From Siphonodentalium dalli (Eukaryota > Mollusca > Scaphopoda > Gadilida > Siphonodentaliidae): 64,000 nucleotides of DNA. This document shows positions 9,455-38,567 of the stretch, piece by piece. The stretch is from NCBI GenBank assembly GCA_032622095.1, contig CP136068.1:118779509-118843508 (forward strand). Reading direction: 5' to 3'. A program made the position numbers and the translations under genes. Below the pieces are notes generated by a model. That model saw only the letters and a list, made by a program, of their open reading frames with translations. It searched no databases and had not been told where the DNA came from. Every line of letters begins with the position of its first letter. Within the stretch, counting starts at the first letter, position 1.

Positions 9455-10640
9455 TATATCCACAGGTATTTGGCCAAAAAAACAAACAAAATATATATAA
9501 AGGTAAGTATGAAGGCTGATAGTGAAAATAGGAGGTAAAAAATCATCCTCACAAAAGCAAAATGTTTTATCAAATTGATCTGGAATTCTAGCGTTATGTG
9601 CCCAAGTAATCATATTTTTGGTTAAAGTTTAGCTTTCCGTCGTACTTTAAACAAGTGAGCATAGAACATCATTCGAAGTTGTCAATGAAATGTATTTTTT
9701 GGTACCCGAAACATCCGTCCAATGAAAATTCCAAAAATCAGATAATCCAACCCCTAAATCACCGAAATCTATTATATTATCATCAAACTAAATAGTCCTA
9801 TTGTCAAACAGGCGTTGTTTCACGAAGTACAACTAATTTGGGGGTGGTACTCAACATATATCGAGTTTAATAACGATTTATGTCCTTTTTTTTCGTCAGT
9901 TTTACAGATATCTTTTCGCGGGAGGCCATTTTGCAAAACTGAAAGCGAAACTAACTTGAACTTTATTAAATTAATTTTAATATCTCTCTTTTAATTGATA
10001 TCCGGTATTCTTAATGACAAAAATTATTGAAAAATCATGCGGTGGATATACAATACCCACTAGATAAGGAATTAGATAAAACATTTTTTTTATCGATGTA
10101 AAATTATTTTATTTTGGAGTCATTTACTGCAGCGTTTCTCGAGTTTGTTTCGCACTTTAAAAATGGCCTCCCGCGAAAAGAAATCTGTAAAACTGACGGA
10201 AAAAAAAGACAAAAATCGTTATTAAACTCGATGTATGTTGAGTACCACACCCAAATTAGCTGTCCTTCGTGAAAAACGTCTGTTTGACAATAGGGCTATT
10301 TAGTTTGATGATTAGAGTATAGATTTCGGTGATTTAGGGGTTGGATTGTTTGATTTTTTTTATTTTTCATTGGACGGACGTTTCGGGTACCAACCAAATA
10401 AATTTGATTTATCAACTTTAAATGTTTTTCTATGTTCACTAATCTCAAATACGACGGCGAACCAAACTTTTTTGAAAACTATGATTATTTGGTCTCATAG
10501 TGCTGCAATTACAGATCAATAATGTTGCTTTTGTAGAGAAAAATGCTGACCTCTATCAAAAATGAGATAGATACCTTTCCGAGATTTTTAATAAATTAAA
10601 AAAAAAAACCATTGTGTGCCTAATACCTGTGTATATATCC
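9455..10640. repeat. Large foldback element, ~480-bp arms
   Basis: Ends TATATATCCACAGGTATT (left) and AATACCTGTGTATATATCC (right). The arms stay complementary inwards through GTACCCGAAACATCCGTCC / GGACGTTTCGGGTACC, AACCCCTAAATCACCGAAAT and GCGGGAGGCCATTTT / AAAATGGCCTCCCGC, at an estimated 80-85% identity. The unpaired centre is about 170 bases (9960-10130). No coding remnant was seen. Confidence 0.8.
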
Positions 10641-10914
10641 ACATATAGATGCTATAGCGGAAAGGAAACTGTTAACAGTGACAGCAACTTCGACAACATA
10701 TTAAGTATAGACTGTCTACAATCTGTATGAATGTTGTTTTTGTTTTGAGTTTTAAGGCCAAATATATTTAATAAAAATACTGAGGAAATCTATTTGGAGT
10801 TGTGAAAAAAAATTGCGTTTGCATATGGGACTCATTGAGAACCGCAAGGGCATGTAGTTAAAAGCGAGTAAATCTATAAATTAAAAAGAATCCAAATGAA
10901 CGAGCGCTAGACTA

Positions 10915-11315
10915 GGCCCATTTCATTTTCGAATCACCGATTATTTTGTTATAGTGCCTTGATATACGGAGTTAATAACAATATATGACATAAAATATGA
11001 TTAAAATATTATAATTCATCACCATTTTGGAACGTATGTGTCTCAGAAGGTACTCACAGAGTAATAGAAAATAGCTGAAATCATAGAAACATTCTCCTTC
11101 CATTGAAAATAATAGTAGTAGTATATGTCCAGATGAATCTTAAGCACAGAAAACACGCCGATACCTCAACAAAAACAACATGTTCACAGTTTATTACACC
11201 GGATAATTACAAGTTGATAATACAATGTTTTGTCGCTTCCTCTTTCAAATGGTATATAATGTGGAACATGTTTTATGGGGGTTCAAAAATTAAGTGGGTC
11301 TTTAATTTGTATTTT
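10915..11315 (+). repeat. F3 MITE copy, nearly complete
   Basis: Left end AGGCCCATTTCATTTTCG and right end AAAATTAAGTGGGTCTTTAA, with all internal family blocks between, slightly shorter than the 26335-26816 copy. Confidence 0.8.
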
Positions 11316-11354
11316 TTAATATAGAGGTGATAACTTTGGATTTTTGAATTTCAG

Positions 11355-11459
11355 TCATAATCGATCAATCACACCGTGTTGGGGTATATCCCATCTACGG
11401 ACGCCCATGCGACTACACCGCAATATCGAGGATGCGTTCACTCACTCGCAAGTTATCAG
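11355..11459 (+). CDS. Possible orphan exon (uncertain)
   Basis: An acceptor-like GAATTTCAG ends at 11354 and a donor CAG/GTATGT starts at 11460. The 105 bases between have CpG-containing, coding-like composition. A phase 2-2 reading is open (HNRSITPCWGISHL start), as is a second frame (VYPIYGRPCDYTAISRM). I recognise no domain, and there is no partner exon, so it may be chance. Confidence 0.2.
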
Positions 11460-11497
11460 GTATGTTTTGCAGGCATTATACGTCGTAGAAAACCATG

Positions 11498-11697
11498 TGG
11501 TGCCAGAATATAAAACCATATGGTGCCAGAATATAAAACCATATGGTGCCAGAATATAAAACCATATGGTGCCAGAATATAAAACAATATGGTGCCAGAA
11601 TATAAAACCATATGGTGCCAGAATATAAAACAATATGGTGCCAGAATATAAAACAATATGGTGCCAGAATATAAAACCATGTGGTGCCAGAATATAT
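11498..11697 (+). repeat. 23-bp minisatellite, ~8.6 copies
   Basis: The unit is TATGGTGCCAGAATATAAAA plus CCA, 23 bases, almost identical between copies (C/A variation at one site). All three minus-strand frames stay open because 23 is not a multiple of 3 and the unit lacks stops, which yields spurious ORFs rich in FIFWHH and YILAPY. Confidence 0.92.
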
Positions 11698-12763
11698 ATG
11701 AATGGGATCATGCGTGTACAATGCACTTGTACCACAATAAAATCTCTTTAGTTCCACCTGAAACGATGCTGCCGATATGTTCACAAATCAATTATACAGG
11801 CATGTTTCTGTTCTGTCGACATATGGTTTTCTACGACGAAATGCCTTCGAAAATTACAGTACAAAGTTGCGAGTTTGTGAACGTACCCTTATGTGACGTA
11901 CACATATTCGCAGATTTGCCCGACATTGTATTTGCAGGCATTTCGATACATAATGCTATACTGTGCCAGGGCAGAAAACGAACGCAAAAATGCTTATAAG
12001 ATGCCAACTCTGTGAGAAATAAAAAAAAACCCTGTAGTTCCACATGTATAGTGATGCTACCGAAATAAATAAATAACATGCAATTACCTGGCAAGAATAT
12101 CGTCATATATACGGGGGGGGGGTCGTGAGAAAATGTACACATACATGGCCCAAAAAAAAACAAATTACAGCCCTTTTGCTGCCCACCCACCCTTTTTGTG
12201 CAAAATATTTATTCAAGACCAAATCAAAGGTAAGTTTTAAATTGGTCAGTTTCTGGCAGATTCCAAGTGTTCAAACAATTGAAAAACTATCAACGGTTAT
12301 GATGTTGTTTTCGACATTGAAAAATACATTTTGAAATAAAAAGTGTTTTATTCTACAGTATGCACAGATATTGTGAGGTAATATTTATAGTGCCAATAAG
12401 CCAACATTGTGTTTAATTTTTACATAAATAGTCCAGTTACTAATTAATGACTTTTTCACTGTTGTTTCCAAAAAGGTGCCACCAACCATCATATCAGAAC
12501 ACCTTATATCCATACCTGCAATGACAGTTATATAGTATATAAGTATCACTATTTGGAGCCAAATAAACAGGCTGGCATGTTTATTTTTTAATTTGAGGTA
12601 ATTTGTTAGCCAGCACTCTGCAGCACTAGTATTATTTGGTCATTAGACATGCCAGAGTGAAAATGCCAGCACTATCAGGCACTATTCAATATTAATTTGA
12701 GGTGAAATGCAAACCAGCACTCCTATTCAGTCATCACTTTTATTTGGCACCAGAGAGTGCTTT

Positions 12764-13170
12764 ATCTTATACCTACATATGTTCTTAAGTGTTGGTTAAG
12801 GTCATAATCTATGTTAGAACACATTTATTAGTGAAAACAACTTAAAACAATGTCCATAATGTGGGTTGAAAAATATTTGCATAAAACAATTTTGTTCAGG
12901 CCTCTGAGATGCACCCACCCCGCCTGGTATAGGTATGTTTTTGGAAGATCTCCCCTGTATTACTTATATCTTATACCTACACTGTCCCTAAGTGTCTGTA
13001 AAGGCCATAACCTGCCTTAGAACACAATTATTAATGAATATATTTGAAAACTACTTAAAACAAGGGCAAAAATGTGAATAGAAAATTTTTTGCACAAACT
13101 CATTTTTTCGGGCCTCTTCGGACACACACACCCCGGCCCTGTATGATAAAACTTTTGTGCGACCCCCCCC
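12764..13170 (+). repeat. Tandem duplication of a ~200-bp unit ending in a C tract
   Basis: 12764-12960 and 12964-13170 share TATCTTATACCTACA, TAGAACACA-TTATTA, ACTTAAAACAA and a GGCCTC-CACCCCG block; the second ends in CCCCCCCCC. A related C-tract module recurs at 55540-55610. A weaker ~90-bp repeat with AGCCAGCACT / TATTTGG precedes it (12550-12770). Confidence 0.65.
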
Positions 13171-13334
13171 CCCGATATATACAGGTATTTTGAAGGCAAA
13201 TGTGTGTAGCACCACTATACGTGTGGAACTGCAGCAATTTTACTTTATTATGTCGTTAGCTTTGGTAAAGAAATTAAGATGCATTGTATATGTATGTTGC
13301 CGTGCATATTCTGGTTCCATACATGTATGCTCGC

Positions 13335-13845
13335 TGGGGAATCACGTGGTTTCGAGTTGATGAGTTTCGTGCATTCAAAATTTCAAAATGGCCGAGGCGA
13401 TCACAAACGCCACAAGAAACGAGGAAAAATGTAATAAACTATGATAATATATTACATAGTATTTTTGGCAGCTATGAGCGTACGCTATACCTTTTTTCAA
13501 ACAAGTTGAGACTCCATGTGTGTCCAAACTCACAGTCGTTTGCTCCTATTCTGACCAAAGGATTCTCCTAGATGTAAGGACAGGTGTATTACACGAACCT
13601 CCTACTGGCAACTTGGTCAGCTTGTTATAGAAAACTATTGAGTATTTCCTAACACATAAGGTATGCATGAACTTGTTTTTAAAATAGACTAGCATAATTA
13701 TGCTAGTAAAAGCCAAAATGCTATGCATTGTGTCAGTTCCTCATATATTATGCTATATAGTATGTTATTGTGTGTTTTTGCAATCGCCTCGGCCATTTTG
13801 AATACGTGGTACTCACCAACCTCGAAACCACGTGATTCATCACCG
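13335..13845. repeat. Inverted repeat pair
   Basis: 13335-13430 (AATCACGTGGTTTCGAGTTG, CAAAATGGCCGAGGCGAT) is the inverted complement of 13760-13845 (ATCGCCTCGGCCATTTTG, CAACCTCGAAACCACGTGAT). The arms are ~85 bp with a ~330-base centre, so this is a probable foldback element. Confidence 0.75.
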
Positions 13846-14697
13846 TGATATGGTTGTCTGTAACGAAATGCCTGCACAAATAGCATGCAAACTTATCATT
13901 GTATCGTCGGTGGGTTTTTAAAAGGTCGAACCTGCCATTTTTGCGCGAAATTTGTATTGCCTTTTCGGATATTAAGTTCATCAATATTTCAAGTATATCT
14001 ACCATTTTTCATTTTTTTTCCGCGGAAATTCGTATTCTAAAATGTCGTATCTGGGTTCCCCGCGAACAAAAAAAATCGTTAGTTCTGAAATGTCGTAATT
14101 GTTAGTTTCTAAACCGTTCCTGGTAATTCTGATTTGACTGTTTTGAAGAAGTATTACCGGTGTGTGTATCCTCATTATCCTACTTATCCTGAGTGACAGT
14201 GACCAACGAAGCCGCGGAAATTGTCAAAATTAAAATGTCGTATAGACAAGATTTCTACTTGTTACTTCTAAAGTGTCAAATGACACCATACAATCATAAT
14301 TTCTCATCAACTAGAACATAATAAAAATATGAAAGTGTTTCTATTATAACAACTGTGATATAAATCGTTATTGTGCAAAGTTATTGGCAGATACCTATTC
14401 TAGTTCCAGAGATAAATAGTTTTTTGTGTCTCCTGAACAGTTTGATTTTCCTGGGGTACGACCTTTTAGAAGCCCACCGACGGTGTATGAACGTACCCTT
14501 AGGGTACGTTCATACGCTGGCAATATTGCACTGCAAACTGCAAAAATGCCAGCTGCAAAGGTTGTTTTGTTTTGTTTTGTTAGCTGGCATTTTTGCCAGC
14601 TACCGACGAGCTCGTGCTGTGTCGTGGCTGGTCGTCAACAATCAACGGTGTTATATGATAACGGGTGTATACCTCTCTGTCGGTGGCCACAGCACAA

Positions 14698-14763
14698 GGC
14701 CACTAACAACAAGAAAACCATAGTCAGAAATGGTAACGCCACCAAGATCGTATTATTAGCCAT
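14698..14763 (-). repeat. Dispersed ~60-bp repeat, partner of 276-336
   Basis: Reverse-complement copy of 276-336, about 200 bases inside the left end of the Harbinger element. Confidence 0.7.
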
Positions 14764-14962
14764 AAATATAAATAATAATACAATTATTCTATAAACTAGC
14801 TTTCAAATTTTATGCGGGAAATTTGCGTACTTCCATATTTCAAGTTTTCCCGTTTCTCGTGGCATACATTACTTTCATCAAACTGTCTTCTTTATTACAC
14901 AAGCTGATAGGCCCGACTTCACCCGGGCTGTTTCCCATCTGCTTTCCGGTGAAAGGTGCGAT

Positions 14963-15480
14963 TTGACCTTCAATTGACTATTTCGAAAGTCAAGGTCAGG
15001 TCAGGGTCATGATTTGTCCAGTCCAAAACACCCCCACCCGTAGAAAACTACCCATAGGTATCAAATTTCGTCGAAATCCGTCCGTTTACCCAACTTGACC
15101 TTTAATTAACAATTTTGAAGGTCAAGGTAAGGTCAGAGTCATGATTTGACCCGTCCAAAACACCCCCCCCCCCCCGACAAAAGTACCCATAGGTATCAAA
15201 TTTCGTCGAAATCTATCCGTTTTATCCGAGTTGACCTTTGATTGGCCATATTGAAGGTCAAGGTCAGGCCGAGGTCACGATTTGACCCGTTCAAAACTCT
15301 CCTCGGACCAAAGTATCCCTAGGTATCAAATTTCGCCGAAATTTGTCCGTTTTACCCAAATTGACCTTGCATTGACAGTTTTAATGGTCAAGGTCAGGTC
15401 GGGGTCACGATTTGACCCGTTCAAAACACTTCCCGGACACAAATACCCATAAGTATCAAATTACGTTGAATTCTATGGAA
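14963..15480 (+). repeat. ~132-bp tandem repeat rich in AGGTCA half-sites, 3.9 copies
   Basis: Units begin near 14963, 15095, 15231 and 15361 with TTGACCTT, followed about 20 bases later by AAGGTCAAGGTCAGG, then TGATTTGACCCGT and TACCCATAGGTATCAAAT. It lies inside the Harbinger element. One unit has a C tract expanded to 13 (15164-15176). Confidence 0.85.
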
Positions 15481-15556
15481 AGCCGAGGAGGACATGTTGG
15501 TTGCTAATTGCTAGATATACGACGCGGTATTTTGAAGGTGTTTCAAACTAGGAGAT

Positions 15557-15684
15557 AGAAGTATTCTGCGTTTCAAATGGTGATGAATTATAGTAGTTTA
15601 TTCAAATTTTATGGCATAAATTGTTATTAAAACCGTATATACTATAAAAAATTAATGACTCGAAAATTAAGTGGGCCTTTAAAC
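15557..15684 (-). repeat. F3 MITE fragment inside the Harbinger element
   Basis: Contains GTTTCAAATGGTGATGAATT, TTGTTATTAAAACCGTATA and the terminal GACTCGAAAATTAAGTGGGC followed by CTTTAA. Confidence 0.75.
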
Positions 15685-15929
15685 AAAGTCACAATTGCAT
15701 TTAGGCTCATCTCATACTCGTCCATTCAGCGATATTCTACTGCGCAGTTTGTTATAGCCTCCAGTATTTATTGAGCGTTATACCCCCAACTGTTATAATT
15801 CGCCTTTAGCAGGCGTACTCTTGCCTCAGATTATTGAGATATTAGGTCACACATAATCACATTAAATCGCATCGTAACATAGCAATTGTGTGGGCTCCTT
15901 GGCGTGAATATGTAATGAGAAATAAGGTC

Positions 15930-16700
15930 ATACGTAATGACATTAAACTCAAGAAAACCCTCGAAAACAAAACAAAATCACATTTAATGTTTTATGTTAT
16001 TTCCTTCATAAAAAGAATCTTCGTGATAATGAACCCTCTCGTTACTTTAGAATATAGAATTAACCCTAAAATAAAAAAAATCTTTGGAACACAGAACCTT
16101 CGGAATAACGAACCTTCGGATTGGTGAACCTTCGGAATAGCGAACATTCAGAGAAATTTCGGAATAGTGGACCTTCGGGATAGTGAACCTTCGGAATAGA
16201 GACATGCCCCCCAATATTCATATTATATGCCCAGAGTTCAAAGGTATGGACCCATAAAATTCTAAACTTGGCCCTTAAAATATTGAACTCCAAATTGGAG
16301 CACACACAGAACACCACTTAAGTCAACTGAACCTATGTCATGTCCCAATGCGGGAGGGTCCATATATACCACAACATTCATAGTATATGCCAAGAATTCA
16401 AAGGTATGGGCCCACGTAATGACATAAAATCTCAAGAAAACCAGCGAAAACAAAACAAAATCACATTTAATGTTCTAAGTTAAGTTATTTCCTCCTGTAT
16501 CTGTATCGGTGTGCGCGCATGATCAGTTCGGATGTGAGCGCACACTCCATATAAAGAATCTTTGTGAAAATGAACCCTCTCAAATTAGTCTCAATACTTT
16601 AAAATATAGAATTAACCTAAAAATAACAAAAACCTTCGGAATAGAGAACCTTCGGAATAGCGGACCTTCGGGATAGCAAACCTTCATAATAGAAGCATGT
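15930..16700 (+). repeat. Duplicated segment with ~16-bp ACCTTCGGAATAG tandem arrays
   Basis: 15934-16100 and 16411-16635 share ACGTAATGACAT, AAAACAAAACAAAATCACAT and ATAGAATTAACC. Each leads into an array of AACCTTCGGAATAGCG (16092-16202 and 16629-16692). A second shared block, TTCAAAGGTATGG, is at 16237 and 16398. The minus-strand frames across the arrays are artefacts. Confidence 0.8.
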
Positions 16701-17495
16701 CCCCACAATTACACCGGTGACGTAAACACATGTGCCAATCTTAGTTGTACTCTCGTAATTATCGGTACGATGAAACGGTGACGGAATCTGACGAGGTTTG
16801 CCGAATGTACAATCACCCAGTGAATTATCGATCGACCATGCGATATCAAAAAACCAAAAGCTAGAAACACCACACTACGGTGGCGTAATAATTGATTGTG
16901 TCTGTACCGTCCTGATACGATCGAATGGGATCGGGGTGTGTTCTCTGTGATTCTCATGCACACATACTTATACATGTGGATCTCCGTTATATGAGGATAT
17001 GATGATATGGCGTGATACAAATAGTACCAAAAGTGATGCCTCCCGAGTCATAAATGTGGGAGGTGGTGGCAGGACTCACTATGAGTATCCATGCATTGCT
17101 TCAAATGTGCTTACTTCAGTGTACAAATTTTCAATTGTTATCGAAATGGTCATGTATCGATCAGAATGGCACATTGAAATATCACTCAATTCAGATCAAG
17201 CTGGGGTTCGAATACGTGCCAACACCATCTACACAGACTGCGATATCGATGTAATTGAAGTGGTTTAAAGGTGACTGGTTGTGTCGTCGTGGTGGTGGGG
17301 TGGGGGTCTAACAGTAGGGATAATGGGATATTAGTCTTTGGCATTGATAAAGCATATATGGGCCAATATTATTATTCATGCCATTTGAATAACAATATAT
17401 TGTGTGCTTTTGATTAACTTGTATTACTATTTATTTGATTTCTTTGTTTTGTTTAACATCAGCACCACGTCCCCCTCCCCCCCCCCCCGTTTTTC

Positions 17496-17831
17496 TTAAC
17501 TTATTGTTTTGCTTAACATGAAGACCAACGAGTATGTGACTAAAATTATTGGAATGACAAGTTTGGAGTTTGTGATGATATCCGAGAAGATTTGAATTCG
17601 TCGGTTATCTTCGTTGAGCCAAGTGCGGACGCACCATCTCCTGTCTAGGTGACGTTTATTGTACTCATATATGAGCAGCATCCCATCGAGAGAGCTGGCC
17701 GTGGCGATATCACATTCCAACATGTCAAGTGACATTATTTTGACTGGCCTAAGAATACCAACACGCATCGTGTTCTGATATATTGCAAACAGCTCATCAA
17801 TCACGCAAAACGGCTGTCGTTCATTGATCAC
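17496..17831 (-). pseudogene. Harbinger transposase N-terminal remnant
   Basis: A 111-aa minus-strand frame starts 51 bases inside the right TIR of the 14502-17940 element. Residues ~59-75 read KRHLDRRWCVRTWLNED, which resembles the basic R-R-W-x-V-R/H-P-W block before the DDE domain of Harbinger/HARBI1 proteins. After about residue 93 the sequence stops looking like the family and becomes hydrophobic, so it is truncated or followed by an unrecognised intron. No DDE motif was found in the element. Confidence 0.4.
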
Positions 17832-18091
17832 TACTAACGCTGATTTGTTGACAGCGGGCAGAAATTAATCCGTTTTGGCAATTTTGCAGCTGGCATTTTT
17901 GCAGTTTGCAGTGCAATATTGCCAGCGTATGAACGTACCCTTAGGGTGCGTGGTCGTTAGCTACTGCAAAGCTATATTTGTCGCCCATTGTATTCGAAAA
18001 TCAATTGTCCTCGCCATAGACTTGCTGACTGTGCTATTCCAGGCAACCGACAGTTAATTAGTGTAATCCCCATTATCGGCGTGGACCGACC

Positions 18092-18300
18092 TTAACCCTT
18101 TCATACCGAGAGCTGCGCTGGTGCAGCATTAAGTATCACGTGACACTGCATTCTCTGATATATGCGAGTCTCCCATGGGAGAGAATGCCCTGGCTTACAA
18201 TTAAAGTCAAGGTAAATATTGTTAGCCCAATGTATTCACTTGTATAAGCGAGGTTCCATATACGGGAGACTCGCATATATAAGAGAATGCGTTGGCACAG
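18092..18300 (+). repeat. F1 TTAA MITE, right end lost
   Basis: The left end is TTAACCCTTTCATACCGAG. Two hairpin modules follow (18146-18195 and 18230-18300), the second a good stem from CTCGCATATATAAGAGAATG. Closest to the copy at 26073-26265. Confidence 0.7.
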
Positions 18301-18323
18301 GATTTTATGTAGAAAAAAGCGAG

Positions 18324-18520
18324 CAATGGGCCGATAAATGACATGGGTCTCATATTTGTACCCCTTAATTAGGTCGGCGGCCAATTTGGATCTAGGTGGG
18401 GTGTATGGAAAGTTTTACCCTACAATACCCTTTGTTTGATAGAAATCGGTCAATACAAGGGGCCGAAAAATGATATTGGTCCCTCATTTACACCCCTTTG
18501 TGCGGCGGCCAACAACAGTT
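18324..18520 (+). repeat. Two-copy ~125-bp tandem repeat
   Basis: 18324-18390 and 18450-18515 share GGGCCGATAAATGACAT / GGGCCGAAAAATGATAT, then TACCCCTTAATTAGGTCGGC / ACACCCCTTTGTGCGGC. Divergent copies. Confidence 0.55.
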
Positions 18521-18713
18521 ACTGTAATTAGGGTTCGCTGGGGGTGGTGCCCCAGGTGTCCATGATATCGATTCACGCGCAATGTGCACCCCCACCCCAC
18601 CCCCAACCCGGACTAAGGTGTAAGATGTGGCTGTCGCTGAGAAACAATCATAGTTCCGGGCAGGACTGGTGGGTGAAAGCGATAAATTAATTAAAACTAT
18701 GATAACCCGTATG

Positions 18714-20690
18714 TGGAGGAGATTACGGAAGCACAGTAGCGCCACAAATAAATAATAATTACGGAGTTAAACGCCCTAATATAGGCCTAATAAACGCCCT
18801 AATATAGGTCTACAATATAGGCCCTAATACAATATAGGCCCTAATATAATATAGGCCCTAATACAACATAGACCCTAATATAGGCCTACAATGTATGCCT
18901 ACAATATAGGCCCTAATACACTATAGGCCCTCATACAATATAGACCCTAATATAGGCCTACAATGCCCTAATATAGGCCTACAATATAGGCCCTAATACA
19001 ATATAGGCCACAATATAGGCCAACAATATAGGCCCTAATATAGGCCCTAATATAGGCCTACAATATAAGTAATAATACAATAGGCCCTAATACAATATAG
19101 GCCCTAATACAATATAGGCCCTAATAAAATATAGGCCCTAATAAAATATAGGCCCTAATATTGGCCTACAATATAGGCCTACAATATAGACCCTAATACA
19201 ATAGGCCCTAATACGATATAGGCCCTAATACAATATAGGCCCTAATACAATATAGGCCCTAATATAGGCCTACAATATAGCCCTAATACAATAGGCCCTT
19301 ATACAATATAGGCCCTAATACAATAGGCCCTTATACAATATAGGCCCTAATATAGGCCTACAATATAGGCCCTAATATAGGCCTACAATATAGACCCTAC
19401 TACAATAGCCCTAATACAATATAGGCCCTAATACAATATAGGCCATAATACAATATATGCCCTAATATAGGCCTACAACATAGGCCCTAATATATGCCTA
19501 CAATATAGGCCCTAATACAATATATGCCCTAATATAGGCATACAATATAGGCCCTAATACAATAGGCCCTAATACAATATAGGCCCTAATACAATATAGG
19601 CCCTAATACAATATAGGACTACACTATAGGCCTAATACGGCGTTTAAACGTCGTATTGGGGCGTTTAAACGACGTGTTAGGGCGTTATAACGCCGTAATT
19701 AGGGCGTTTAAACGCCATATTACGGCGTTATAACGCCGTCATTAGGGCGTTTAAACGCCGTATTAGGGCGTTTAAACGTCGTATTAGGCGTTATAACGCC
19801 GTAATTAGGGCGTTAAAACGCCGTATTAGGCCTATATTGTAGGCCTATACTAGGGCCTATATTGTAGGCCTATATTAGGGCCTATATTGTATTAGGGCAT
19901 ATATTGTATTAGGGCCTATTGTATTAGGGCATATATTGTAGGCCTATATTAGGGCCTATATTATAGGCCTATATTAGGGCCTATATTGTATTAGGGCCTA
20001 TATTATATTAGGGCCTATATTGTATTATGGCCTATAATGTATATTAGTGCATATATTGTATATTAGGGCCTATATTGTAGCCTTGTAGGCCTATATTAGG
20101 GCGTTTAAATGCCGTATTAGGGCGTTATAACGCCGTAATTAGGGCGTTAAACGCCGTATCAGGGCGTTTAAACGCCGTATTAGGGCGTTATAACGCCGTA
20201 ATTAGGGCATTTAAACGCCATATTACGGCGTTATAACGCCGTAATTAGGGCGCTTAAACGCCGTATTAGGCCTATAGTGCAGGCCTATAGTGCAGGCCTA
20301 TATTGTATTAGCGCCTATATTGTATTAGGGCCTATATTGTATTAGGGCCTATTGTATTACGGCCTATATTGTAGGCCTATATTTTAGGCCTATATTAGGG
20401 CCTGTATTGTATTAGGACCTATATTATATTAGGGCCTATATTGTATTAGGGCCTATATTGTATATTAGGGCCTATATTGTATATTAGGGCCTATATTGTA
20501 GGCCTATATTAGGGCGTTTATTGGGCCTATATTAGGGCGTTTAAATGCCGAATTAGGGCGTTTATTATGTCTATATTAGGGCGTTTAAACGCCGTATTAG
20601 GGCGTTATAACGCCGTATTAGTGCGTTTAAACTCCGTAATTAGGGCGTTTAAACACCGTATTACGGCGTTATAACGCCGTAATTATTATT
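18714..20690. repeat. Palindromic satellite unit 1 (with inverted end)
   Basis: 18716-18762 (ACGGAAGCACAGTAGCGCCA) is the inverted complement of the start of the following spacer (20683-20722). The left arm (18776-19630) is built from 17-bp ATAGGCCCTAATACAAT and 13-bp ATAGGCCTACAAT monomers. A core (19630-19826) has repeated GGCGTTTAAACGCC and GGCGTTATAACGCC palindromes. The right part (19827-20512) holds reverse-complement monomers (TATTGTAGGCCTATATTAGG), interrupted by another core block at 20098-20272, and it ends in a last core block. No coding potential. Confidence 0.9.
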
Positions 20691-21320
20691 TTATTTGTGG
20701 CGCTACTGTGCTTCCGTAGGAAATGTATACACTGGGCTGTCTAAAAAACACACTATATAGTGTGTGTTATGTCAAACAGCAAGTCATTGATTGAGACGGT
20801 CGCGATATTAAATTTAAATATTAATTTGACACCAAATGTTCGTATTTTCAATAATGCATTTCATATCGGTTGTCGAGTTCGGCTCTATTGAAATACCAAA
20901 AAAAAACGACGAATAATATATAATAGGTTTGGCGAATAAAGATGTGTTCATAACGAGAAGCTGCTTCAAACCCCATCATTGTGCTGCCTATCACCGCTCC
21001 AATGGACCAACATTTCGGGTTTCACAAGATGCGGGTTATTTTAGGAAATTGTAGTAGAACGAAGGGTAATATCCTATTCTCACAATATAACACAAAAGGT
21101 GACATCCAATATATTTCTTGGGATATATTCTAAGATGAGTAGTAGAGTGTAATTATAACGTTGTACAAGGACACGGATAGATGGTTTTTCATTGGAGAAG
21201 GGTGTCCATCTCCCTACTATTTTTATTCCACTCCCATTGAATTATTATACCCATGTATATTTGTCACCACTGACATCACCGAAAATATTGGACTTTTCTC
21301 TCAAAAATTTGACATAAATA
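20683..21320 (+). repeat. Satellite spacer, copy 1
   Basis: About 635 bases of ordinary complexity starting TTATTATTTTATTTGTGGCG and ending TTGACATAAATA. It is >95% identical by eye to 22697-23330 and 24298-24936. It contains the short palindrome ACACACTATATAGTGTGTGT and a 35-base segment (20779-20813) found inverted at 41857-41891. Confidence 0.9.
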
Positions 21321-22696
21321 TATAGGCCGTAATACAATATAGGCCCTAATATAGGCCTACAATATAGGCCTGCAATATAGGCCCTAATACAATAGGCCCT
21401 AATACAATATAGGCCCTAATACAATATAGGCCCTAATATAGGCCTACAATATAGGCCCTAATATAGGCCTACAATATAGGCCCTAATACAATATATGCCC
21501 TAATATAGGCATACAATATAGGCCCTACTATAGGCCTACAATATAGGCCTACATTATAGGCCCTAATACAATAGGCCCTAATACAATATAGGCCCTAATA
21601 CAATATAGGCCATAATACAATATAGACCTACAATATAGGCCTATACTATATGCCTAATACGGCGTTTAAACGCCGTATTAGGGCATTTAAACGACGTATT
21701 AGGGCGTTATAACGCCGTAATTAGGGCGTTTAAACGCCATAGTACGGCGTTATAACGCCGTAATTAAGGCGTTTAAACGCCGTATTAGGGCGTTTAAACG
21801 CCGTATTAGGCGTTATAACCCCGTAATTAGGGCGTTTAAACGCCGCATTAGGCATATATTGTAGGCCTATACTAGGGCCTATGTTGTAGGCCTATATTAG
21901 GGCCTATATTGTATTAGAGCCTATATTGTATTAGGGCCTATTGTATTAAGGCCTATATTGTAGGCCTATATTAGGGCCTATATTGTATTAGGGCCTATAT
22001 TATATTAGGGCCTATATTGTATTAGGGCCTATATTGTATATTAGGGCCTATATTGTATGCCTATATATTGTAGGGCGTTTATTAGGCCTGTATTAGGGCG
22101 TTTAAATGCCGTATTAGGGCGTTATAACGCCGTAATTAGGGCGTTAAACGCCGTATCAGGGCGTTTAAACGCCGTATTAGGGCGTTATAACGCCGTAATT
22201 AGGGCGTTTAAACGCCATATTACGGCGTTATAACGCCGTAATTAGGGCGCTTAAACGCCGTATTAGGCCTATAGTGTAGGCCTATATTAGGGCCTATATT
22301 GTATTAGGGCCTATATTGTATTAGGGCCTATATTGTATTAGGGCCTATCGTATTACGGCCTATATTGTAGGCCTATAGTGTAGGCCTATATTAGGGCCTA
22401 TATTGTATTAGGACCTATATTATATTAGGGCCTATACTGTTTTAGGGCCTATATTGTATATTAGGGCCTATATTGTATATTAGGGCCTATAGTGTAGGCC
22501 TATCTTAGTGCGTTTATTAGGCCTATATTAGGCGTTTAACTGCCGTATTAGGGCGTTTATTATGCCTATATTAGGGCGTTTAAATGCCGTATTAGGGCGT
22601 TTAAACGCCGTTTACGGCGTTATAACGCCGTATTAGTGCGTTTAAACTCCGTAATTAGGGCGTTTAAACGCCGTATTACGGCGTTATAACGCCGTA
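21321..22696. repeat. Palindromic satellite unit 2
   Basis: Same order as unit 1: left monomers 21321-21655, core 21656-21848, reverse monomers 21849-22072, core 22073-22266, reverse monomers, final core to 22696. It lacks the inverted spacer end seen left of unit 1. Confidence 0.9.
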
Positions 22697-23330
22697 ATTA
22701 TTATTTTATTTGTGGCGCTGCTGTGCTTCCGTAGGAGATGTATACACTGGGCTGTCTAAAAAACACACTATATAGTGTGTGTTATGTCAAACAGCAAGTC
22801 ATTGATTGAGACGGTCGCGATATTAAATTTAAATATTAATTTGACACCAAAAGTTCGTATTTTCAATAATGCATTTCATATCGGTTGTCGAGTTCGGCTC
22901 TATTGAAATACAACAAAAACGACGAATAATATATAATAGGTTTGGCGAATAAAGATGTGTTCATAACGAGAAGCTGCTTCAAGCCCCATCATTGTGCTGC
23001 CTATCACCGCTCCAATGGACCAACATTTCTGATTTCACAAGATGCGGGTTATTTTAGGAAATTGTAGTAGAACGAAGGGTAATATCCTATTCTCACAATA
23101 TAACACAAAAGGTGACATCCAATATTTTCTTGGAATATATTCTAAGATGAGTAGTAGAGTGTAATTATAACGTTGAACAAAGACACGGATAGATGGTTTT
23201 TCATTGGAGAAGGGTGTCCATCTCCCTACTATTTTTATTCCACTCCCATTGAATTATACCCATGTATATTTGTCACCACTGACATCACCGAAAATATTGG
23301 ACTTTTCTCTCAAAAACTTGACATAAATAT
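22697..23330 (+). repeat. Satellite spacer, copy 2
   Basis: Direct copy of 20683-21320, with a few substitutions and short indels. Confidence 0.9.
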
Positions 23331-24297
23331 ATAGGCCGTAATACAATATAGGCCCTAATATAGGCCTACAATATAGGCCTACAATATAGGCCCTAATACA
23401 ATAGGCCCTAATACAATATAGGCCCTAATACAATATAGGCCCTAATATAGGCCTACAATATAGGCCCTAATATAGGCCTACAATATAGGCCCAAATACAA
23501 TATATGCCCTAATATAGGCATACAATATAGGCCCTACTATAGGCCTACATTATAGGCCCTAATACAATAGGCCCTAATACAATATAGGCCCTAATGCAAT
23601 ATAGGCCCTAATACAATATAGACCTACAATATAGGCCTACACTATATGCCTAATACGGCGTTTAAACGCCGTATTAGGGCATTTAAACGACGTATTGGGG
23701 CGTTATAACGCCGTAATTAGGGCGTTTAAACGCCATATTGGGGCGTTATAACGCCGTAATTAGGGCGTTTAAACGCCATATTACGGCGTTATAACGCCGT
23801 AATTAGGGCGTTTAAACGCCGTATTAGGGCGTTTAAACGCCGTATTAGGCGTTATAACGCCGTAATTAGGGCGTTTAAACGCCGCATTAGGCATATATTG
23901 TAGGCCTATACTAGGGCCTATGTTGTAGGCCTATATTAGGGCCTATATTGTATTAGAGCCTATATTGTATTAGGGCCTATTGTATTAAGGCCTATATTGT
24001 AGGCCTATATTAGGGCCTATATTGTATTAGGGCCTATATTATATTAGGGCCTATATTGTATATTAGGGCCTATATTGTATATTAGGGCCTATAGTGTAGG
24101 CCTATCTTAGTGCGTTTATTAGGCCTATATTAGGCGTTTAACTGCCGTATTAGGGCGTTTATTATGCCTATATTAGGGCGTTTAAATGCCGTATTAGGGC
24201 GTTTAAACGCCGTTTACGGCGTTATAACGCCGTATTAGTGCGTTTAAACTCCGTAATTAGGGCGTTTAAACACCGTATTACGGCGTTATAACGCCGT
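23331..24297. repeat. Palindromic satellite unit 3 (shortened)
   Basis: Left monomers 23331-23650, core 23650-23890, reverse monomers 23890-24112, final core 24112-24297. About 410 bases shorter than unit 2: the second core plus one reverse-monomer block are gone, while the two outer joints match unit 2 closely. Confidence 0.9.
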
Positions 24298-24936
24298 AAT
24301 TATTATTTTATTTGTGGCGCTGCTGTGCTTCCGTAGGAGATGTATACACTGGGCTGTCTAAAAAAACACGCTATATAGTGTGTGTTATGTCAAACAGCAA
24401 GTCATTGATTGAGACGGTCGCGATATTAAATTTAAATATTAATTTGACACCAAAAGTTCGTATTTTCAATAATGCATTTCATATCGGTTGTCGAGTTCGG
24501 CTCTATTGAAATACAAAAAAAACGACGAATAATATATAATAGGTTTGGCGAATAAAGATGTGTTCATAACGAGAAGCTGCTTCAAACCCCATCAATGTGC
24601 TGCCTATCACCGCTCCAATGGACCAACATTTCTGGTTTCACAAGATGCGGGTTATTTTAGGAAATTGTAGTAGAACGAAGGGTAATATCCTATTCTCACA
24701 ATATAACACAAAATGTGACATCCAATATTTTTCTTGGGATATATTCTAAGATGAGTAGTAGAGCGTAATTATAACGTTGTACAAGGACACGGATAGATGG
24801 TTTTTCATTGGAGAAGGGTGTCCATCTCCCTACTATTTTTATTCCACTCCCATTTAATTATACCCATGTATATTTGTCACCACTGACATCACCGAAAATA
24901 TTGGACTTTTCTCTCAAAAACTTGACATAAATATCT
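24298..24936 (+). repeat. Satellite spacer, copy 3, end of array
   Basis: Third direct copy. It ends at CTTGACATAAATAT, after which non-repeat sequence begins. Seven A in CTAAAAAAA (six in the other copies) opens a short spurious frame here. Confidence 0.9.
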
Positions 24937-25399
24937 GCAAAAATTCACTTTTCATGTTTGGACGATTTTTCTCAGGTAAAATGTAACTATCTTTGGATTG
25001 AAAGGTGTTTATTGTTTTGGTCTATCTTAAATGTGTCACACTACGGTGTGTACAGACCAAATTGCTCAAGATGGCTTCCAAAATGGCAACCAAACATTAT
25101 ATCCCGAACATTATTCTCTGCGTTATCCGAAAAGGTAGCAAATTGTGACCCACTTGACTTGGTTATTTAATTAACTGACAACTACATGTTCTATTCTGGT
25201 TGTCCCAGTTCAGTGTGGAGCATGACAAATTCATTTTAAAGTATGTAATTTTGCCGAGAACCTTTTTTTGTGATTTTGGATTTATTGAAAGGAAATGGGC
25301 AGAACTTTGAGACGGAACTGAGATGGACCATAATCTGTGGTTATTCTGGTCCATTATGATAAAAAAAAATGTCAACTGGATACAGTGTGGATGCCAAGA

Positions 25400-25850
25400 T
25401 CGTAGCCAGGGAGTTACTCTATGATCATATGTGAGGTGAATAGGTATACAGGGAGTTATTGTATGTCATGACTTATGTGAATAGGTATACAATGAGTGAC
25501 TATATGGTTATGAGTGGGTTGTCCATGGTAAGATGCATAGGTATGCAGGGAGAGGTCATGGTCAGGTGTGAAGTGAATCGGTATGTATGGAGTGACTGTA
25601 TGGTGTATGGTTGTGTATATCCAGTACGGGTGCACCGGTGTGCCTGTATAGGCATTGGTGTGGTGTATGGATATTTCTACATGGTCATCTGTGTGCTGAT
25701 TATGTATATATGGAGTGACTGTAAGGTCATGGGTGGGATGTACATATGTTGTCTGTATGATCATGGATGTGGTGTGTGGATAAATAGGGAGTGATTTTAT
25801 GGTTACGGGTAATGTGTATAGGTATACATGGAATGATGTATTATAATTAA
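25400..25850 (+). repeat. Degenerate ~37-50-bp tandem repeat
   Basis: Repeats of AATAGGTATACAGGGAGT / GGTATGTATGGAGTGACTGT and ATGGTCATG-type blocks, strongly diverged. Stop codons are rare on both strands (frames of ~100-110 aa on each), which is explained by the repeat and not by coding. Confidence 0.6.
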
Positions 25851-26072
25851 ACGGAATCCCTCAGTGGATACATAATTATTAGCATACACCTCGAGCGGAA
25901 TACAAGCCGGAACTATTCTTATGCATGGTATGGGCGGCCTTTTAGCCAAAATATTCGTCGAAATAAAATCAAAATATGCAACATAAAAATCTATATGTTA
26001 GCGTCTCCACCTTAAAACAACACTTCCTGGTCTTCAAACGAAAATCTATATTCTATACCAAGGTGAATATAT

Positions 26073-26265
26073 TTAACCCTTTCATGACGGAAGTAGCGCT
26101 TATATAAGAGAATGCGCTGACTTACATCTTAAGGTAAATATTGTTAGGCCAATATGTTCTCTTATATATGCGAGGCTCCATGTGGAAGACTCGCATATAT
26201 AAGAAAATGCATTGGCACATGAATTTTTGCTAAATTTGAGGAAGTTCCAGTCGTGGAAGGGTCAA
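26073..26265 (+). repeat. F1 TTAA MITE
   Basis: TTAACCCTTTCATGACGG at the left, CGTGGAAGGGTCAA at the right (last TTAA mutated to TCAA). One strong hairpin at 26150-26217. Confidence 0.75.
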
Positions 26266-26334
26266 ATTATAATAAACCGTGAGTTTACCAGATTACAATA
26301 GAGGTTTTCTGTTTTTATTTTCCATAAGGATTTA

Positions 26335-26816
26335 AAGGCACACGTAATTTTCGAGTCAAAGATTATTTGTTTTATAGTGACTTGATATACGGTTTTAATA
26401 ACAATCTATGCCATATAATATTATTAAAATACTACAATTCATCACCATTTGAAACATCTGTGTCTCAGAAGATGCCCATAGAGAAATAGAAAACAGCTGA
26501 AATAATGGAAAGATTCCTCCGTTATGGCTCCCATAATGCAATAGAATTCAAACTAAAGATGTATTTTCAATGGAAGGGGAATAAAACTATATTAGTTTTC
26601 CTCTTCTATTGAAAATAATACACTTTTTACTACAATCTAGATAAAACTTAAGCACACAAGCACGTTGGTAACTCAACAGAAACAACTTGTTCACAGTTTA
26701 TTACACCGGAAAAGTTGATAATACAATGTTTTGAAGCTTCCACTTTTAAATGGTATATAATATAGCATATATTTTATATATGTGATCTGGGGTTTCGAAC
26801 ATTAAGTGGGCCTTTA
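26335..26816 (+). repeat. F3 TTAA MITE, full length
   Basis: TTAAAGGCACACGTAATTTT to CGAACATTAAGTGGGCCTTT followed by AA. This is the best complete copy, with all internal family blocks in order. Confidence 0.85.
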
Positions 26817-26901
26817 ATTACAATTTGATTGAATTTAGTTGTCAGAAATACTTCTTTTTTCTGTTCAGAAATATGTCACCTAAGTCTGAGATATATATTA
26901 A

Positions 26902-27241
26902 TTAAAGATACTCCGATGGTCCACATATGATCAGATTCCAACAACAGCAACATTTTTTGAAATGCCGCTTCAGTTATCAGAATCGAGTAATTGCCCCAAA
27001 ATAATGCTAACCACGGTCAACTATAGCATACCATTTCCCAAAACCTGTTATTTATCAACATTTTGTTCAACGGCTGCCGATTTATAAATAAAAATAATAG
27101 ATTTCAAACATCGATATCTGATCACTCTGAGCTTTGGTGGGTGGGTTCCTCGACAGTGCTCGACTCGAATCAAATACTGTTTACCCCCGAAGCCAAGGAA
27201 ATAGTAATTTGCGAGCGTTAATTCGGATTATGCATCTTTAA
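26902..27241 (+). repeat. F2 TTAA MITE, shortened
   Basis: TTAAAGATACTCCGATGG at the left and TATGCATCTTTAA at the right. The interior has GATATCTGATCACTCTGAGC and CCTCGACTCGAATCAAAT. Confidence 0.75.
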
Positions 27242-27439
27242 TTAAATAACAACGTACCTGTAATTCCTAAAACAGTGACTCGTTTACAATGAATGCAGTT
27301 AAGTGGCATCAAATCTTTTAAATTTCCATCTCTGAGAAACTGTGATTTTGTGAGTGTGAAAAATTTACCACCTCAGCAAATCGGTTACAACATGGAACCG
27401 GTATTGCCACAGTGAGCTACAGTAAACTCTAATTTTCGA

Positions 27440-27658
27440 AATCTATATCTTAGTTTGAATAATGTTGCATTCTGGGAGCGAGACGGGGGGAAATATTTTT
27501 GTGATTTCAGCTATGGACCTGAGATACAGACGTTCCAATGATGGTGATGATTTATAGTTTTAAATCATATTTTATGTCATATAGTGTTAGTAAAACCGTA
27601 TATCAAGGCACTATAACAAAAATAATCGGTGACTCAAAAATTAAATGGGCCTTCAACT
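27440..27658 (-). repeat. F3 MITE fragment
   Basis: TTAGTTTGAATAATGTTGCA through AACCGTATATCAAGGCACT to AAATTAAATGGGCCTT. Only about half of the family is present. Confidence 0.75.
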
Positions 27659-27759
27659 ATATGGTGAACTGGTGATTCACTATAATTCGAAACATGGTTT
27701 TACCATAGAATCTATGGCAAAATTACACATGGCAAATTAAAACCATGGTTATTCTATAG

Positions 27760-28234
27760 TTAACCCTTTCAGTGCCAGGGGCCGATTGTATCGGCCCTAT
27801 TTTGCGGTCTGTAAAATCGGCCCTAAACAAAATAAAAAAGTATTTTTTGTTTTTGTTTTTTTGGGGTTGAATTTTGTTTGGGTATGCTTAAGCATGCTAT
27901 AGCGAATTTAAAAACAAACTGGATAAAACCTTAGGGGCATGTTATAACTCAAAACTATCACCAATTATTCATAGTAATAATTTTGATGCCCATGAAAAAC
28001 GTAAGATTCCCTGGCACTAAACCTACAAAATAAGTCTGTTAAAGAATATAAGAAAAAATTATTAAAATTGTAAAAAATTGTAAAAAATAATAACAAATGA
28101 TGAAAAATTGTTCGGCCAATGCATTCTCTTATATATGCGAGGCGATCTATGGTCGACTCGCATATATAAGAGAATGCATTGGTACAGGGTATATGGGTTG
28201 ATACAAAAATCGGACCTGGCACTGAAAGGGTTAA
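27760..28234 (+). repeat. F1-type TTAA MITE
   Basis: TTAACCCTTTCAGTGCCAGG at the left and CCTGGCACTGAAAGGGTTAA at the right are perfect inverted ends. One hairpin at 28112-28190 contains CTCTTATATATGCGAGGCGA. It is inserted into a region with repeated ACCATGGT motifs (27690-28405). Confidence 0.85.
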
Positions 28235-29250
28235 ACCACGTTACCATTGTGCAGTTGTGAGATTGATTACATTCACCATATTTTTTACCACACAATAAAT
28301 AAAGTTTTGCCACAAAAACTTTGGTAAATCCAAACATGGTATGCAAATACCACAACATTACCACGGTAACTGTGGTTACAATATATCTACTACAGTAAAC
28401 CATGGGAAATTGTGATAAATGTCTCAGTGCCATGCACCTTATAAGTTAAATCGATAACCGTCCGGCTGCCAAACCTCTCTTTTGTCTGTATCTGAACAAT
28501 ATAGACTGATACAGTCAGCACAATATCTTGAAAGTAACTATATATGGATTTGTGAGAGCTCATTGCATTTTTAATCAATTGCATAAACCCGAGTCGTAGT
28601 AAGGGGTGAGGGTCTGATATATTCCAAGAAATGAGCTCTCAATATTAATACACAGGAAACAATTAATACATTGTCCGTCGTCAAAATATTTATCGCTGAA
28701 ACCTCTTTATCGCCATAACAATACCATATATGAATGGGGTCACCCGACCGTCTTGGTTGTGAGTGCATGCGTACAGCTTGGAATGGAAACTCCGTGTTAT
28801 TAAAATGCCACACCAATCGATGTGTACCTTTGACATAAAACAAATATTTGCTCGACATGCGGCATATGACAGGCTCTGCAGTACGTTTTATCTGCGCGCG
28901 GGAACGGATCGCTCACGTGCACACCCATGCACTCGTATGACTATTGTATGTATTAATTGGAAGAACACATCACCGATGGTCACTTTTTATAGGAACAAGT
29001 TAGATGGATGATATGACATTCATTTCCAATTTACGAGGATAAAGAACTCGGATCTTATCACACAACAGACCCAGTGCGATACCTTATATATATAGTTGCT
29101 ATACAGGTATGTACTTCGAGATCCGGTTTATTTGCATTGACTCACATGTCACCCATAACGTATCTTAACAGTTCAAATTCCATTGTGGTGGTAGATCATG
29201 ACATGAATCTCTACCCTGGCTACCCGGATATATCACGTATACGCAACAAG

Positions 29251-29904: not shown

Positions 29905-30117
29905 CCGTAATACCCAAAGTAATTGACCACTTAACCACAGCAGAATTATGGGTAATTTTTCAGGATTTAGTCGGAAATATGGCTTGTTGTCATTTATCGG
30001 AAAGCTCTCGCCGAGAGCTTTCCGTTGAATGGCAACAAGCCATATTTCCGACTAAATCCTGGAAAATTACCCAGAATTCTGCTGTGGTTAAGTGGTCAAT
30101 TACTTTGGGCATTACTG
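29905..30117. repeat. Near-perfect 213-bp palindrome MITE, TA-flanked (copy 1)
   Basis: TA at 29903-29904 and 30118-30119. Arms of ~105 bp start CCGTAATACCCAAAGT and meet at GAAAGCTCTCGCCGAGAGC with a ~3-base loop. Ends of the type CAGTAATGCCC with a TA duplication fit Tc1/mariner-derived MITEs. Confidence 0.85.
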
Positions 30118-30296
30118 TATGTTGTCAGATTTTTTTTACCAAAGACATTTATATCCAATTAGTCTGGTAACTTCCTCACTATACTTGAAATTGTATTTAG
30201 ATGAGTCACCCGATATTCTCCTATATATTTTAGAGGTAACAACTGATTCCTGATTTAGGTACGCAAACTGCCATTACACTTGAGAATGACACTATA

Positions 30297-30509
30297 CAGT
30301 GATACCCAAAGTAATTGACCACTTAACCACAGCAGAATTATGGGTAATTTTTCAGGATTTAGTCGGAAATATGGCTTGTTGCCATTCATCGGAAAGCTCT
30401 CGGCGAGAGCTTTCCGATAAATGACAACAAGCCATATCTCCGACTAAATCCTGAAAAATTACCCACAATTCTGCGGTGGTTAAGTGGTCAATTACTTTGG
30501 GCATTACGG
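30297..30509. repeat. Near-perfect palindrome MITE, TA-flanked (copy 2)
   Basis: Same family as copy 1, only 180 bases away. TA at 30295-30296 and 30510-30511; the centre is CTCTCGGCGAGAG. Confidence 0.85.
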
Positions 30510-30511
30510 TA

Positions 30512-38472: not shown

Positions 38473-38567
<95 letters not shown>
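38473..38567. repeat. (TA)n microsatellite, ~95 bases
   Basis: An uninterrupted TA run, preceded at 38364-38405 by two C tracts. Confidence 0.97.

Follow-up and report, generated by a model that had tools for sequence, protein, structure and literature searches.

We analysed a 64,000-nucleotide stretch of the genome of the scaphopod mollusc Siphonodentalium dalli (contig CP136068.1, positions 118,779,509 to 118,843,508; hereafter the window), which contains three head-to-tail units built of short tandem monomers. An earlier note on this DNA had described them as a satellite array of giant palindromes separated by a conserved spacer. The first of them, unit 1 (18724-20718), is a foldback DNA transposon of the non-autonomous kind; its inverted ends are TACGG..CCGTA and its 6-bp target-site duplication (TSD) is GGAGAT. 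A segment that begins inside its left arm, takes in its right end and extends over about 600 bp of host flank occurs in tandem. The features of the locus are listed below, with strand in brackets and a dot where none applies.

18718..18723 (.) left TSD GGAGAT; the paralogous empty site reads GTGGAGGAGAT joined to GTATACAC
18724..18765 (+) left terminal inverted repeat TACGGAAGCACAGTAGCGCCACAAATAAATAATAATTACGG, in unit 1 only; its first 28/28 bases equal the ends in L010, L016 and L024
18766..18829 (+) hybrid monomers, core unit (AAACGCCCTAA) joined to satellite unit (TATAGGCC)
18811..19617 (+) forward 17-mer satellite (TACAATATAGGCCCTAA); elsewhere weak matches at two places only
19639..19830 (.) core array 1, 21/22-bp palindromic units GGCGTTTAAACGCC or GGCGTTATAACGCC
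19840..20085 (-) reverse 17-mer satellite, first block
20094..20270 (.) core array 2
20271..20510 (-) reverse 17-mer satellite, second block
20511..20685 (.) core array 3
20684..20718 (-) right terminal inverted repeat of unit 1, ending in CCGTA
20719..21318 (+) host flank copy 1 (the "spacer"), starting GGAAAT
21319..22733 (+) unit 2, a foldback element without its left end; right end kept (1 mismatch in 28)
22734..23332 (+) host flank copy 2, starting GGAGAT
23331..24335 (+) unit 3, like unit 2 minus a 437-bp block (by block order, one core and one reverse satellite block)
24336..24937 (+) host flank copy 3, starting GGAGAT; unrepeated DNA from ~24935, the duplication breakpoint
24872..25895 (.) segment of ~1 kb that is not in the paralog and contains the duplication breakpoint ~64 bp inside
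10613..28420 (+) segmental-duplication context, largely collinear with C8:119850000-119863500; the paralog has neither the element nor the tandem copies

Architecture of the three units

Writing > for TAGGCCCTAATA, < for its reverse complement and o for GGCGTTTAAACGCC or GGCGTTATAACGCC, and allowing at most one mismatch per monomer, the order of blocks is >35 o10 <11 o7 <10 o5 in unit 1, >14 o8 <10 o7 <11 o5 in unit 2, and >14 o10 <10 o5 in unit 3. The arrangement claimed earlier, i.e., forward monomers, a palindromic core and then reverse monomers, is correct: the strand switches at a core in all three units, and every unit closes with a core block. In the 6.4-kb array stretch, inverted repeats of 30 nt or more form 958 pairs, as against 2 in each of two control stretches of equal length, and unit 3 (23330-24300), folded as single-stranded DNA, gave -360.8 kcal/mol compared with -149.8 ± 6.5 for 20 shuffles (z = -32). 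The long inverted arms with internal tandem repeats, and little or no middle, that characterize a foldback element are all present.

The units are real, as the earlier note had it, but they are not equivalent repeats. The outer left end (18724-18765) was found in unit 1 only. Identity over aligned bases is 95% between units 1 and 2 (1388 bases) and 99% between units 2 and 3 (973 bases), apart from indels, among them the 437-bp block absent from unit 3. A similarity of more than 95% had been claimed for the spacers and was borne out (98.0-98.3% mutual identity over aligned bases), but by the present boundaries their lengths are 600, 599 and 602 bp rather than ~635 bp.

The 17-mer was not found in any of the 20 other loci that carry the element's ends (at most one mismatch in a 12-base core). 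A search beyond the locus (3/3 candidates scored, very common words skipped) returned C4:291840739 (70%) and C1:39063175 (75%), both weak. The hybrid monomers at 18766-18829 combine core and satellite parts, and the score of the alignment between core unit and satellite unit was equalled by 12 of 2000 shuffles. The 17-mer is probably a shortened 21-bp core (end) unit that expanded inside the window copy.

Transposon ends, empty site and tandem duplication

The right edge of each of the three units, TACGGAAGCAC..GTGCTTCCGTA, is the outer edge of unit 1 (18724-18765) in reverse complement. Four of our genome searches scored part of their candidates (core 40/173, spacer 40/1020, family D end 40/448, integrase 135/312), and the copy numbers given here are lower bounds. 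From the genome matches to the core, part of the listed places were fetched, and at least one such terminal inverted repeat (TIR) was present at all 20 loci fetched for a core match (L009-L028). These represent 18 insertions, L017/L018 and L019/L020 each being the two ends of one element; L016 and L026 had one end only. Among the 16 insertions with both ends, a count that omits the pair at C4:272.77 (no right end), the TSD matched at 6/6 positions in 12 and at 5/6 in 2, and 2 had none. For the window copy the outermost right flank, GGAGAT, was used (6/6), the nearest right flank, after unit 1, being GGAAAT (5/6). None of 238 mismatched flank pairings reached 5/6 or better.

Ten further copies with both ends are 3.7-4.2 kb long, with arms of ~0.8-1.1 kb at 94-98% identity in the five that were measured. 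L014 and L015 (~1.1 kb) are near-complete palindromes, and L021 (1.9 kb) is palindromic in part and more diverged (78%). An EEP/LINE-like (long interspersed nuclear element-like) fragment in the 3.9-kb copies was dropped, having no Pfam support.

Window positions 10613-28420 and C8:119850000-119863500 form a segmental duplication, ~88-95% identical over long blocks. The paralogous empty site, 1.06 Mb from unit 1, reads GTGGAGGAGAT joined directly to GTATACACTGGG; the element and the tandem copies are both absent. The paralog's single copy of the spacer is broken by an insertion of ~5.6 kb. The 40 places scored, out of 1020 candidates, in the genome search with the spacer were the three window copies, two parts in the paralog, and 35 partial matches covering ~118-139 bp, which represent a dispersed repeat. 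Taken with the empty site, these matches mean that the "conserved spacer" of the earlier note is host flank, and that the TSD is GGAGAT. The element landed once, with a 6-bp target duplication, in one copy of the segmental duplication.

Units 2 and 3, in which the left end is absent, share a start junction where spacer sequence (..GACATAAATAT) passes, over a 2-bp overlap, into ATAGGCC... The sequence into which the third spacer continues is unrepeated in the array, which places the breakpoint at ~24935. We infer from these sequences that the element and its flank were duplicated in place, with subsequent unequal exchange, and not by rolling circle. A rolling-circle origin, one of two routes suggested earlier, was rejected: unit 1 has kept its two ends and its TSD, and the host flank remains in register in units 2 and 3. 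The broader suggestion, that a single foldback structure had been amplified, possibly by unequal exchange, is supported, since either unequal exchange or tandem duplication fits.

Forty-kilobase copies, their integrase and the terminal arrays

Two pairs of the same ends lie 40,876 bp (C8:155464449-155505324, TSD GTATCA) and 39,494 bp (C7:164195858-164235351, TSD AAAGGG) apart, with TSDs matching at 6/6 in each case. Homology between these two copies (hits over 250 bp) begins and ends at the TIRs, and they are largely collinear. They differ by 145 mismatches in 28,945 bases (0.5%; nine alignments, each 1.5 kb or longer) and by indels that reach ~2 kb, so the ~40-kb unit appears to have moved recently.

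Just inside one end of the 40-kb copies is P0002, an open frame of 288 amino acids (aa) with Pfam matches to rva_4 (2.5e-27) and rve (1.1e-4). Its nearest named models in NCBIfam are IS3 (3.5e-7) and IS481 (1.1e-4), both under their curated cut-offs, and its DDE residues are D133/D192/E233. In the genome search (135/312 candidates scored) it is matched at 99-100% at two places only, both of them in the 40-kb copies and both open, the next-best match being 58% over most of the query. The other loci L001-L046 gave no hit; comparison with PDB sequences gave four matches (E 0.09-0.87), none meaningful, comparison with viral contigs gave one 14-residue match and nothing more, and a PHROGs scan of six open reading frames (ORFs) from the 40-kb copies gave nothing. 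The 40-kb copies also contain a Gypsy-type pol (L039:7183 to L040:1571), which was rejected as the transposase, being distant from the ends, whereas the IS3-like integrase adjoins one of them.

The 40.9-kb copy also carries, as cargo, a HECT-like open frame of 661 aa (L041:747-2729, + strand; Pfam HECT E = 0.066, PDB TOM1 E = 0.0068), which is broken into two frames in the C7 copy. An internal inverted repeat of ~2 kb in the 40-kb element (L041:6981-9202 and L042:1-2192), with tandem units of ~361-365 bp and ~140 bp, is perhaps a nested foldback element. The ORF scan of the C8 copy covered 20 larger ORFs and 135 of the 145 ORFs of at least 62 aa; of the ten outside the short-ORF scan, seven are the 661-aa frame or overlap with it, and two were among the larger ORFs scanned, leaving 8/145 unscanned. 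The sole further Pfam match among the short ORFs was PcrB (1 member, E = 0.00099). The Polinton core genes PolB, packaging ATPase, protease and capsid were unmatched in the ORFs scanned, although genes with short exons would escape, and a Polinton identity was rejected on the absence of a core-gene match.

IS3EU elements are defined in the passages cited here by TA..TA termini, a TSD that is usually 6 bp, and an IS3-like transposase without HHCC (PMC10045372), and fungal members end in TAYGG..CCRTA (PMC12730594). In the present family the termini are TA..TA, the TSD is 6 bp in the proportions given above, and an IS3/IS481-like DDE transposase, with NCBIfam scores below the curated cut-offs, occurs in the two 40-kb copies. 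No HHCC motif was seen by eye in P0002, a frame that may miss a 5' exon. On the nearest models of the integrase, the ends and the TSD, the window element, as judged from sequence, belongs as a non-autonomous foldback copy to a family that shows those hallmarks of the IS3EU superfamily that were tested.

The core unit GGCGTTTAAACGCC repeats mostly every 21 or 22 bp (mean 21.3-21.7). We examined 11 integrase groups, i.e., the window family (A) and ten chosen by hand from the genome matches to P0002. Arrays adjoin the TAYGG end in 8/11, with mean spacings of 19.6-23.3 bp; the units are palindromic in 6/11, and their sequences are unrelated. The groups other than A with an array are as follows (identity to P0002 in brackets).

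Group B (55%): CCTGATATATCAGG, mean spacing 21.45
Group C (58%): TCCTAATTAGGA, 79 units, mean spacing 21.09
Group D (48%): TCGTGGCCACGA, 45 units, mean spacing 20.9
Group E (40%): GGGAGATAAGTTATCTCCC, mean spacing 19.6, array 114 bp from the end
Group F (44-52%): 20 bp, 3-5 units, not palindromic
Group G (51%): CAAGTTAGCTAACTTG, spacing 22
Group H (38%): spacing 23.3, palindrome not evident

The ends of B, D and F fall at the break in homology between copies. Using Tandem Repeats Finder (period 18-24, at least 5 copies; B is missed by this criterion, being reported as a 43-bp dimer), an array was detected in 9 of 14 test loci (51,914 bases), 7 of the 14 having one that contains a palindrome of 12 bp or longer. 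In 161,655 bases of control DNA there was one array, and none with such a palindrome. The control array, at window positions 11489-11696, has nine copies of a 23-bp unit, AAAACCATATGGTGCCAGAATAT, with a 10-bp palindrome, and is matched also in the paralog; it is possibly the end of another element.

In families A and D both ends bear an array, even where a copy lacks the integrase gene, and both families have formed foldback macro-palindromes. The family D end had at least 422 genome matches (40/448 candidates scored), many of them + then - pairs 0.7-1.9 kb apart, and two family D foldbacks that were read fully have 40 and 28 forward units, followed by 20 and 35 reverse units, respectively. 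Eleven family D insertions included 8 with perfect 6-bp TSDs, 2 with perfect 7-bp TSDs and 1 with none, and 0/110 mispaired flanks reached 5/6 or better. The earlier note had named a strand switch found only here as evidence that would tell against it; foldback copies with the same ends occur elsewhere, and the + then - pairs of family D occur at many places.

One of the two insertions with a perfect 7-bp TSD (CGTGAGG) spans C4:175392895-175457181, where two family D ends are separated by 64.3 kb and an integrase lies inside one of them; on this single TSD the interval is a candidate for one very large transposon. Elsewhere in the window, another foldback-like structure lies at positions 30000-30511, where the inverted repeats measure 128 and 108 nt and are 93-95% complementary, and positions 38473-38566 are a perfect dinucleotide repeat, (TA)47.

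Interpretation and significance

In the mechanism that we propose, the integrase of 40-kb-type copies would have moved the window element in trans. The arms, composed of palindromic units of ~21 bp about two helical turns apart, would be putative repeated binding sites for a (presumably dimeric) transposase. The terminal arrays may be helically phased transposase-binding sites, Galileo being a precedent, in the passages cited, for transposase binding to repeats in long TIRs (PMC3688188), and they may help to bring together ends up to tens of kb apart. Lengthening and shortening of the arrays by unequal exchange or slippage would give short, all-arm foldback copies. In the window copy, a 17-bp derivative of the core unit would have expanded to fill the middle, and the account of Tetris cited here (PMC4079207) provides a precedent for foldback repeats turning into satellite. 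The later tandem duplication might have arisen by end joining at a short overlap, followed by unequal exchange.

We consider it very likely that an IS3EU-type foldback element inserted once and was copied in tandem with its flank, with an integrase that would be supplied in trans and arms that are putative transposase-binding arrays. Several observations weigh against this. Two of the 16 insertions lack a TSD (L010 matches at 2/6, L021 at 3/6), and in a smaller, earlier control 2/110 mismatched pairings reached 5/6 or better; we read the latter as the flanks of L014 and L015 paired with each other, these two being probably one insertion, duplicated, because they share flanking sequence. The integrase groups were hand-picked, not a random draw, and three of the 11 had no array, i.e., L062 (42%), L063 (46%) and L064/L065 (31%), although the matches at L062 and L063 start at residues 92 and 89, so that the true 5' side was possibly unseen. 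The array of E sits 114 bp from its end, and the ends of C, E, G and H were read from the motif alone. Palindromicity was assessed by shuffling for groups A-F, with 102 (A), 156 (B) and 6 (E) of 5000 unit shuffles doing as well, E being scored on a palindromic variant from its array (its Tandem Repeats Finder consensus failed the even-axis test). It is weak in single groups, with 969 (C) and 580 (D) of 5000 shuffles as good; F (4680) is not palindromic, and the control unit from the window (11489) scores 869, like C.

The tandem monomers and head-to-tail units, and a 17-mer that resembles a satellite, could be taken to indicate a true satellite array with strand-switched monomers that owes its amplification to rolling circle or unequal exchange and has nothing to do with a transposon. 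This reading, close to that of the earlier note, is contradicted by the TIRs, the TSD and the paralogous empty site, by the same ends at unrelated places, by a spacer that is host flank, and by the weakness of the two off-locus matches to the 17-mer. Nor does the locus have the long one-orientation arrays, the arrays across the genome and the lack of transposon ends expected of a conventional satellite, and we regard this explanation as improbable in the extreme. An assembly artefact could also yield three units in sequence as repetitive as this, and the analysis covered the assembled sequence. However, the units differ from each other by substitutions and indels, their flanks are collinear with an independent paralog, and the foldback design recurs at other places, making an artefact very unlikely. 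The element might instead be a Polinton/Maverick (6-bp TSD, up to 40 kb) or a Gypsy/Ginger-type element. The 6-bp TSD and full copies of ~40 kb would suit a Polinton, and a Gypsy-type pol lies within the 40-kb copies. Yet the integrase adjoining the end is nearest to IS3/IS481, with HHCC not seen by eye, the ends are TAYGG, and the Polinton core genes were unmatched within the limits of the ORF scan; we give either of these identities a very small probability.

A stronger competitor concerns the arrays themselves. The element might be IS3EU and its arrays of ~20-23 bp have no role in transposase binding, being products of neutral slippage, sites for other element or host proteins, or promoter elements that serve the transposase gene. 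Of the eight groups with an array, six had it sought and seen on the integrase side only, the arrays of F and H are not evidently palindromic, three groups have none, and the non-autonomous copies tolerate large changes, all of which this explanation would accommodate. Against it, families A and D carry the array at both ends, gene-less copies included, the spacing holds near 21 bp although the sequences are unrelated, and the Galileo transposase binds repeats within its long TIRs in the account cited (PMC3688188). We judge its chances to be a little short of even.

More tentatively, and with a clearly less than even chance of being right, we suggest a general rule for the IS3EU transposons of this genome, perhaps of animals widely. 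Their ends would carry family-specific "iterons", mostly palindromic units of ~20-23 bp spaced near two turns of the helix, which would be coated by dimers of the element's own transposase, pairing ends 40 kb (perhaps 64 kb) apart. The sequence of the palindrome would turn over fast between families while its spacing was held, transposase and array co-evolving much as do centromere repeats and their binding proteins, and foldback or satellite-like DNA would be a by-product.

With IS3EU/GingerRoot elements (PMC10045372; PMC12730594) the window family has in common the TA..TA termini (TACGG..CCGTA), the 6-bp TSD and an IS3/IS481-like DDE transposase, in which HHCC was not seen by eye. Unmentioned in the passages cited are copies of 39.5 and 40.9 kb that hold a Gypsy-type pol and a HECT-like ORF, palindromic terminal arrays of ~21 bp, and foldback derivatives. 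Foldback elements are mostly assigned to Mutator, with exceptions such as Galileo of the P superfamily, according to the cited part of PMC4079207. Tetris, the Drosophila virilis foldback described there, seeded satellite DNA, and is alike in having tandem-repeat arms that expand to satellite-like arrays. However, its repeats are ~220 bp, its TSD is 8-10 bp and its authors did not find a transposase, whereas the window family has palindromic units of ~21 bp, a 6-bp TSD and a transposase-bearing partner. The foldback-like Galileo (PMC3688188; PMC4168063) is alike in its long TIRs with internal tandem repeats, where the THAP domain of its transposase binds sites, but belongs to another superfamily, with a TSD of 7-8 bp and repeats of ~140 bp in one copy, short phased palindromes being undescribed in the portion cited (PMC4168063). 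Oyster satellites annotated DNA/IS3EU, CgiSat35 (690 bp) and CgiSat47 (129 bp; PMC8268682), likewise tie satellite-like repeats to IS3EU, by annotation; their monomers are longer, and that portion of the source describes neither foldback structure nor phased palindromes. In the literature co-mention of foldback and IS3EU that we found, foldback appears in the reference list and IS3EU in a table, in the parts cited.

The present results link foldbacks to elements of IS3EU type, and to the only close copies of the integrase among the genome candidates scored. The locus displays the stepwise rise of a satellite-like array, from end unit through hybrid monomers and the 17-mer array to tandem copies that include host flank, and an empty site survives in the paralog. 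With unrelated palindromes at nearly equal phasing of ~21 bp in several related families, the repetitive arms of foldback elements become a question of binding.

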